The position numbers and the translations under genes are program-made. Below, one piece after another: positions 51,225-51,910 of a stretch of 64,000 bases of DNA (positions are counted from its first letter, which is position 1; the number at the start of each line of letters is the position of its first letter). The stretch spans positions 682,001 through 746,000 of the forward strand of contig NZ_CP059472.1 of assembly GCF_014041915.1 (NCBI RefSeq), given 5' to 3'. The notes under the pieces are model-generated. The model was not told the origin of the DNA. It did no database searches and saw nothing but the letters and a program-made list of their open reading frames with translations. This DNA is from Marnyiella aurantia. GTDB taxonomy: Bacteria; Bacteroidota; Bacteroidia; Flavobacteriales; Weeksellaceae.

Positions 51225-51257
51225 AACTTTGCCAAAGTTTCGAACTTTGGCAAAGTT
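51225..51257. repeat. REP palindrome 1
   Basis: AACTTTGCCAAAGTT, TCG, AACTTTGGCAAAGTT. Each 15-base arm is also a 7-base palindrome around its middle base. It overlaps the RAYT stop codon. Confidence 0.92.
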
Positions 51258-51858
51258 ATATTTCGTAATCATTTTCGCAACGATGTAGATATTTAAAATT
51301 GTCGACTGTTCCAAATACTGTCAGGACTTCATCTGCCTGCACTGCTGTTTTTGATTCTGAGATGATTCTCCTAAAGGACGAAAATCGATACTCCTCCATG
51401 TTTTCGCCTATATTTATAGGGTTTCTATGAATATATACTATAGCTTTTCGAAGGTAATCCTCCGAAGTAATACGCTTTCTTTTGAAAGGCCTTTCGAATA
51501 TACTTCCGTGCCGATTGTGGTCCTTGTTAAAAGCTTGCGTGTAACTACTGATCAGCTTAGCAAGCTGTTTACTTGCTATTGACTTCTCTGCATGGAGACC
51601 CTGCTCAACTTTGCCAAAGTTTGGAACTTTGGCAAAGTTGTTTTCAGTCCACTCCTTTATTCTTATCACGAAATGAAAATGGTTAGGCATCAGACAGTAG
51701 GCATATATCTCAGCAACGGGTAAAAGATATAATGAAACTTTCTGGAGAAAGAAAAGCCTGTTATCATCATTTAAAAATACCTCCCCACCATTAATGCCGC
51801 GATTGAATATATGATAAAAGAATCCAGGTTCCAGGTTGTCTAATCTAATGTCCATCAC
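51256..51858 (-). CDS. REP-associated tyrosine transposase (RAYT)
   Basis: 200-residue IS200/IS605-like single-strand transposase of the RAYT group, which acts on REP palindromes. YHIFNRGINGGEVFLNDDNR at the start, the HUH motif in CLMPNHFHFVIRI, RHGSIFERPFKRKRI and the Tyr helix YLRKAIVYIHRNPIN (Tyr nucleophile), then YRFSSFRRII. Three REP copies are within 30 bases of or inside the gene; the one inside (51607-51639) encodes AKVPNFGKVEQ, between the HUH motif and the Tyr helix. A start one codon later is equally possible. Confidence 0.92.
   Translation of the reverse strand: MMDIRLDNLEPGFFYHIFNRGINGGEVFLNDDNRLFFLQKVSLYLLPVAEIYAYCLMPNHFHFVIRIKEWTENNFAKVPNFGKVEQGLHAEKSIASKQLAKLISSYTQAFNKDHNRHGSIFERPFKRKRITSEDYLRKAIVYIHRNPINIGENMEEYRFSSFRRIISESKTAVQADEVLTVFGTVDNFKYLHRCENDYEI
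51607..51639. repeat. REP palindrome 2, inside the RAYT gene
   Basis: AACTTTGCCAAAGTT, TGG, AACTTTGGCAAAGTT, in frame with the transposase and without a stop on its coding strand. Confidence 0.92.
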
Positions 51859-51877
51859 TTTCTTTCAATTAGAGTTC

Positions 51878-51910
51878 AACTTTGCCAAAGTTTGGAACTT
51901 TGGCAAAGTT
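51878..51910. repeat. REP palindrome 3
   Basis: Same as copy 2 (loop TGG), 19 bases upstream of the RAYT start codon. Confidence 0.92.

Follow-up and report, generated by a model that had tools for sequence, protein, structure and literature searches.

A REP inside a RAYT gene is an already known phenomenon: in the sections of their study that bear on it, Quentin et al. (2018; PMC6006769) describe REPs that lie in frame within tnpAREP genes, in the interval between the HuH motif and the tyrosine (Y), a peripheral variable region. In-frame internal REPs are called there unique to subclass 2.4, which is equivalent to Bertels group 4 (PMC6006769). A further subclass, 2.6 (Bertels group 5), belongs to Bacteroidetes and has atypical flanking secondary structures (PMC6006769). 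The RAYT locus that we report here lies in a window of 64,000 nucleotides from Marnyiella aurantia, this being the whole stretch of DNA that was analyzed; all positions are those of the window. It resembles subclass 2.4, as characterized in those sections, in that a cognate palindrome likewise sits in frame between HuH and Y. It differs in two respects: the REPs of subclass 2.4 have a GT[AG]G foot, whereas the palindrome ends examined here lack it (12 of 426 ends, or 2.8%, against a background of 1.8%), and subclass 2.4 lacks the SS motif after the tyrosine (PMC6006769), whereas RAYTs of the window type have a near-invariant S159 and S160. The features shared with subclass 2.6, again as listed in those sections, are the phylum, the SS motif, the absence of GT[AG]G, the YIHxNP sequence and the flanking palindromes; the HuH-Tyr distance is 83 in the window RAYT against a median of 82 in subclass 2.6, for which internal copies go unreported in the same sections (PMC6006769). 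By these listed features, rather than by the published HMMs, the window RAYT looks like a member of subclass 2.6.

REPINs, as Bertels and Rainey reportedly described them in 2011, are doublets of inverted short palindromes linked to a single RAYT gene. The locus resembles them in its doublet and its single RAYT gene; it differs in that a high-copy dispersed population is absent, there being three short 33-bp copies here and 0-29 in relatives. In-gene REPs and Rickettsia palindromic elements offer a second likeness, in that a palindromic insert is translated in frame; these, however, sit in unrelated genes, whereas here the insert is in the gene of its own enzyme (PMC3733652).

The positional conservation of the internal copy and its change in step with the flanks are unmentioned for subclass 2.4 in the sections of PMC6006769 cited above. 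Likewise, the internal copies of this branch, their repeated occurrence in a single loop and in three frames, the freezing of their synonymous sites and their parallel change with the flanks were not found in the literature searched, as far as its available text extends. Part of this apparent novelty may already be known; within the text that was covered, the repeated origin of the internal copy and its joint evolution with the flanks look new. The locus bears on the question of how RAYTs serve the cell or themselves: synonymous sites held by the probable recognition sequence of the gene's own product are a natural readout of RAYT specificity, as are internal and flanking copies that change together across lineages, and synonymous recoding of the gene would be a clean test for an action of RAYTs on the gene that encodes them.

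The RAYT gene and its three palindromes

The gene encodes a RAYT/TnpAREP-like Y1 HUH endonuclease, a small enzyme of a type that probably mobilizes short repeats able to form hairpins, and occupies positions 51256..51858 on the minus strand, with 200 codons counted from a GTG at 51858; an ATG at 51855 is the more likely start codon. Its product has an HUH motif, NHFH (residues 58-61 by the alignments; 51673..51684, minus strand), and a single tyrosine followed by NP, namely Tyr141 of YIHRNP (residues 141-146). This tyrosine (51433..51435, minus strand) is near-invariant in alignment A1 and invariant in A3, and is presumed to be catalytic, a role taken from the known family. The NCBIfam model REP_Tyr_transpos (NF047646) matches with E 8e-11 at 42 bits, against a curated cutoff of 80, and the Pfam model Y1_Tnp (PF01797) matches weakly, at 14.3 bits against a cutoff of 23; neither cutoff, a database criterion and not a biological one, is reached. 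Judged by its motifs and sequence matches, the window gene is a diverged member of the RAYT family, the below-cutoff scores notwithstanding.

The top PDB match of the AF2 model is 4ER8 (E 5e-7), a structure of E. coli TnpAREP in complex with a REP hairpin. The same structure is also the best match by profile (E 2.7e-6) with a broader profile; a profile built from the close clade alone yielded no PDB relative. Compared with 4ER8, the span from HUH to beta-4 has about 20 additional residues, and in the window RAYT this extra length looks to sit before alpha-C. This is the single RAYT in the 2.6-Mb single-contig genome; a candidate second RAYT was rejected, the weak match covering the upstream palindrome.

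A preliminary description of this DNA had seen a gene of the RAYT type whose coding sequence contains the palindrome of its own enzyme, and three 33-base palindromes, at the stop codon, in mid-gene and 19 bases before the start. Both observations are borne out: the window holds three exact 33-bp copies of AACTTTGCCAAAGTT-N3-AACTTTGGCAAAGTT (15-3-15), for which the chance expectation is 0. The downstream copy (51225..51257) shares two bases with the stop codon; the in-gene copy (51607..51639) is in frame and encodes NFAKVPNFGKV, residues 73-83 counted from the ATG; the upstream copy (51878..51910) ends 19 bases before the GTG and 22 before the ATG. No strand is assigned to the palindromes. The middle copy does lie between the HUH motif and Tyr141, as had been described, and its frame was recognized correctly, the translation AKVPNFGKVEQ being in error. 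The genome-wide count that had been suggested finds, at three or fewer mismatches, only the three 33-bp copies at the RAYT gene and no others in the 2.6 Mb, and the 15-base half-site, at one mismatch or fewer, occurs genome-wide at the six arms and in one other place. In genome G000, away from the RAYT locus, we observe two copies of a related CCTTGTCAAGGTT-type palindrome and no second RAYT; these are perhaps relics of another family.

In the AF2 model (mean pLDDT 92, 41 sequences), the insert occupies the lowest-confidence stretch of the core, with block means of 65-79. It forms a loop between the HUH strand (residues 59-66) and helix C, the first long helix past the insert loop (residues 93-112 by AF2 secondary structure; 51520..51579, minus strand). 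The three roles floated in the preliminary description fare differently: an 'insertion tolerated in a loop' holds as far as its location goes, a trap by which the gene would be cut by its own product has nothing in its favour, the gene being intact and the copy old, and self-regulation by the internal palindrome is possible.

Recurrence in a single loop

Relatives are present in 153 of the 296 genomes of the same family. Those examined have, in most clades, flanking palindromes with the same 33-bp geometry; the palindrome sequence is clade-specific (AACCCTTTCAGAGTT, AGCGCTGTTAGAGCT, AAACCTCATAGGTTT and others), some clades have shorter arms, and 162 of the 213 palindromes have a stem of exactly 15 pairs. 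A contig scan added 80 loci, nearly all from Bacteroidota; 169 genes were sampled in all. In Bacteroidota at large, 33-bp palindromes are common on the flanks of such RAYTs, their sequence varying by lineage.

A palindrome lies within the HUH-to-helix C loop in about 38 of the 169 genes; the palindrome of L182, which is further downstream, would raise this count to 39. The centres of the internal copies fall 18 to 37 codons past HUH, a span of about one tenth of the gene, and all three reading frames are used (25, 13 and 1 genes). Several independent insertions best account for this use of all three frames in one loop. A tree computed without the loop columns, by a fast method that leaves many weak branches, requires 22 changes between presence and absence of the internal copy, and well-supported branches force 7 of these. 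Palindromes of at least 14 of 15 pairs are seen in 34 of the 169 real genes and in none of 507 codon-shuffled genes.

In the clade of the window gene the third, internal copy sits at one codon position: the insertion is at HUH+20 or +21, in phase 1, L127 being the exception in position. With a single insertion position, one old insertion followed by losses is the simplest history. The internal copy is AACTTTGCC in G004, G048 and G173, AACTCTGCC with one arm partly eroded in G092, and AACCTTGTC or AGCCTTGTC in further genera; we infer that the groups g26 and g20 are Kaistella and Chryseobacterium, respectively. A clean pre-insertion (empty) site was sought in G035, of the same genus, and the candidate was rejected: the neighbour genes are there, with other genes between them. 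Downstream of the RAYT gene in G004 (L116/L123), at the place where the window has one palindrome, two palindromes are separated by 138 bp. This segment is found only in G004 among the eight genomes searched, and the difference can be read as an insertion at the palindromes or as a deletion between them.

The internal copy can also be lost. Of the 25 genes in the sister clade, 11 have an internal copy that is intact (at least 14 pairs) and 21 have an intact flank, and hence the internal copy is under weaker constraint than the flanking ones; moreover, some lineages without it keep the enzyme and the flanks, which makes it facultative. In L036, as compared with L031, the in-frame deletion of exactly one 18-bp unit has left the internal copy with a single arm. 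Deletions of this kind are a likely route of its loss.

Parallel change of the internal arms and the flanks

In nearly all genes that have a flank, the internal copy agrees with that flank at no fewer than 24 of the 30 arm positions, and typically at 26-30 of them. The internal arms fit the flanks of other families far less well (0 of 20000 permutations as good), in a test that spans 8 palindrome families, single-linkage clustering having lumped 26 loci. The spacers within a locus, by contrast, match no more than by chance (6 against 4.5 expected, p 0.28). In the Chryseobacterium-type loci (g20), the internal copies have AGCC...GGCT and the flanks mostly ATCC...GGAT, that is, a consistent paired substitution at the second pair (G-C vs T-A). 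The internal sequence has thus changed in parallel with the flanks. Recent copying between palindromes was considered as the source of their likeness and is not supported, given the spacer mismatch and the paired difference in g20; these suggest instead separate inheritance under shared recognition. A palindrome design that is neutral to frame was also considered and rejected, the flanking copies having 3.18 open frames against 3.02 in arm-shuffled ones, hardly more.

The best explanation, which we regard as probable, is that the locus is a REPtron, in which a RAYT (TnpAREP) gene present once is accompanied on either side by its cognate REP doublets, with 15-base arms and a 3-base spacer; the internal copy would be a third recognition hairpin held as DNA and likely a cis-acting TnpA site. 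Long ago, this third copy would have inserted in frame (33 bp being 11 codons) into the flexible loop that separates the HUH strand from helix C, and would then have been inherited. The one loop would tolerate 11 extra residues; the arms would be kept as a hairpin of the flank type, most simply since one enzyme binds all three, with the encoded residues as a by-product. The most likely function would be that of an extra cis-acting site for TnpA binding or nicking within its own gene, which may damp expression or activity, or keep the enzyme in cis. Binding, cleavage and a regulatory consequence are predicted here by analogy with the family (4ER8). Against this explanation weigh the weaker constraint on the internal copy than on the flanks and the want of an association between an intact internal copy and the number of dispersed palindromes. 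It is more doubtful, though possible, that the internal palindrome serves the RAYT as a functional self-address in its own gene, where binding or nicking would control the enzyme or link its activity to its own locus; if so, the recurrent acquisition in one loop and three frames would amount to convergent evolution of a self-regulating mobile enzyme.

A serious rival, and on balance an unlikely one, holds the palindrome to be a neutral passenger that hopped locally into the single tolerant loop of its own gene and stays perfect, devoid of function, by a mutation bias of template switching. The dispensability of the internal copy in many lineages and the low confidence of the loop in the AF2 model are in keeping with this, as is the want of a link with palindrome copy number: dispersed palindromes of the related type number 0-29 per genome in relatives, and across genomes an intact internal copy is not associated with their number (Mann-Whitney p 0.26). 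Intrastrand template switching during replication, which repairs quasi-palindromes, can indeed keep a palindrome perfect without selection; however, it keeps the arms complementary and does not keep an internal copy alike to its flanks, and recent copying is not seen, the arms matching the flanks with the spacers at chance. In keeping with the REPtron reading, among the dispersed copies sampled away from RAYT genes (one or two per genome, without annotation), none sits convincingly inside a gene: where a long open frame covers a copy, the copy lies upstream of the probable start.

DNA-level constraint, and fusions with HemF

Outside the palindrome, the window gene and that of G048 are 62% identical in DNA and 41% (0.41) at synonymous third positions; inside it, the arms are identical at 30 of 30 positions and the third positions at 10 of 10. 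For nine g20 genes, chosen for being intact, 41 arm-site changes are expected along the tree over the 30 sites and 0 are seen; when eroding copies are included, 63 are expected and 7 sites are variable. All three spacer sites vary in both g20 sets. Frozen synonymous arm sites together with a drifting spacer codon indicate a constraint on the DNA and not on the protein. Between clades, five stem pairs have changed on both sides and 94% of cells are paired, pairing figures that are inflated in A2, where the internal copies were picked as palindromes; G-U pairs are rare among the stem changes (3 of 210 cells).

The last figure bears on a reading at the level of the mRNA, in which a hairpin in the coding region, along with the one before the start, limits translation of the transposase or the stability of its transcript. 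The hairpin folds at -18.5 kcal/mol (z -6.8) and one palindrome copy is placed 19 bases before the start, as such a role might have it; an RNA hairpin, however, needs no sequence match to flanking or dispersed copies, and the few G-U pairs count against it too, so that we hold this reading improbable. Scarcely credible, and already contradicted, is a protein constraint, in which the enzyme requires the peptide NFAKVPNFGKV and the palindrome is a coincidence or a consequence: the loop does come directly after the HUH strand, but the palindromes of other RAYTs encode unrelated peptides in other frames, the spacer residue is free, the paired DNA change from GCC/GGC to GTC/GAC forces two dissimilar swaps at once, A to V and G to D, coupled because the hairpin strands pair, and the homologues do not keep the residues without the palindromic DNA, the outcome that the preliminary description had named as a sign of such a constraint, the encoded residues being gone as well where the palindrome is eroded (L023, L030, L055).

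In Flavobacteriaceae, we also observe in-frame fusions of a RAYT with an entire coproporphyrinogen III oxidase (HemF), in L155, L164, L168, L184, L189 and L202; our literature search found no paper on such a fusion. In L164, PF01218 is matched with E 1e-134 after Y1_Tnp, and the other five fusions were judged by visual inspection of the sequence. In L164, L168 and L184, the palindrome that belongs to the RAYT is translated in frame within the linker (SGFENLTGL), and the RAYT-HemF linker of L202 (nt 535-616 of the gene) contains two consecutive palindromes.
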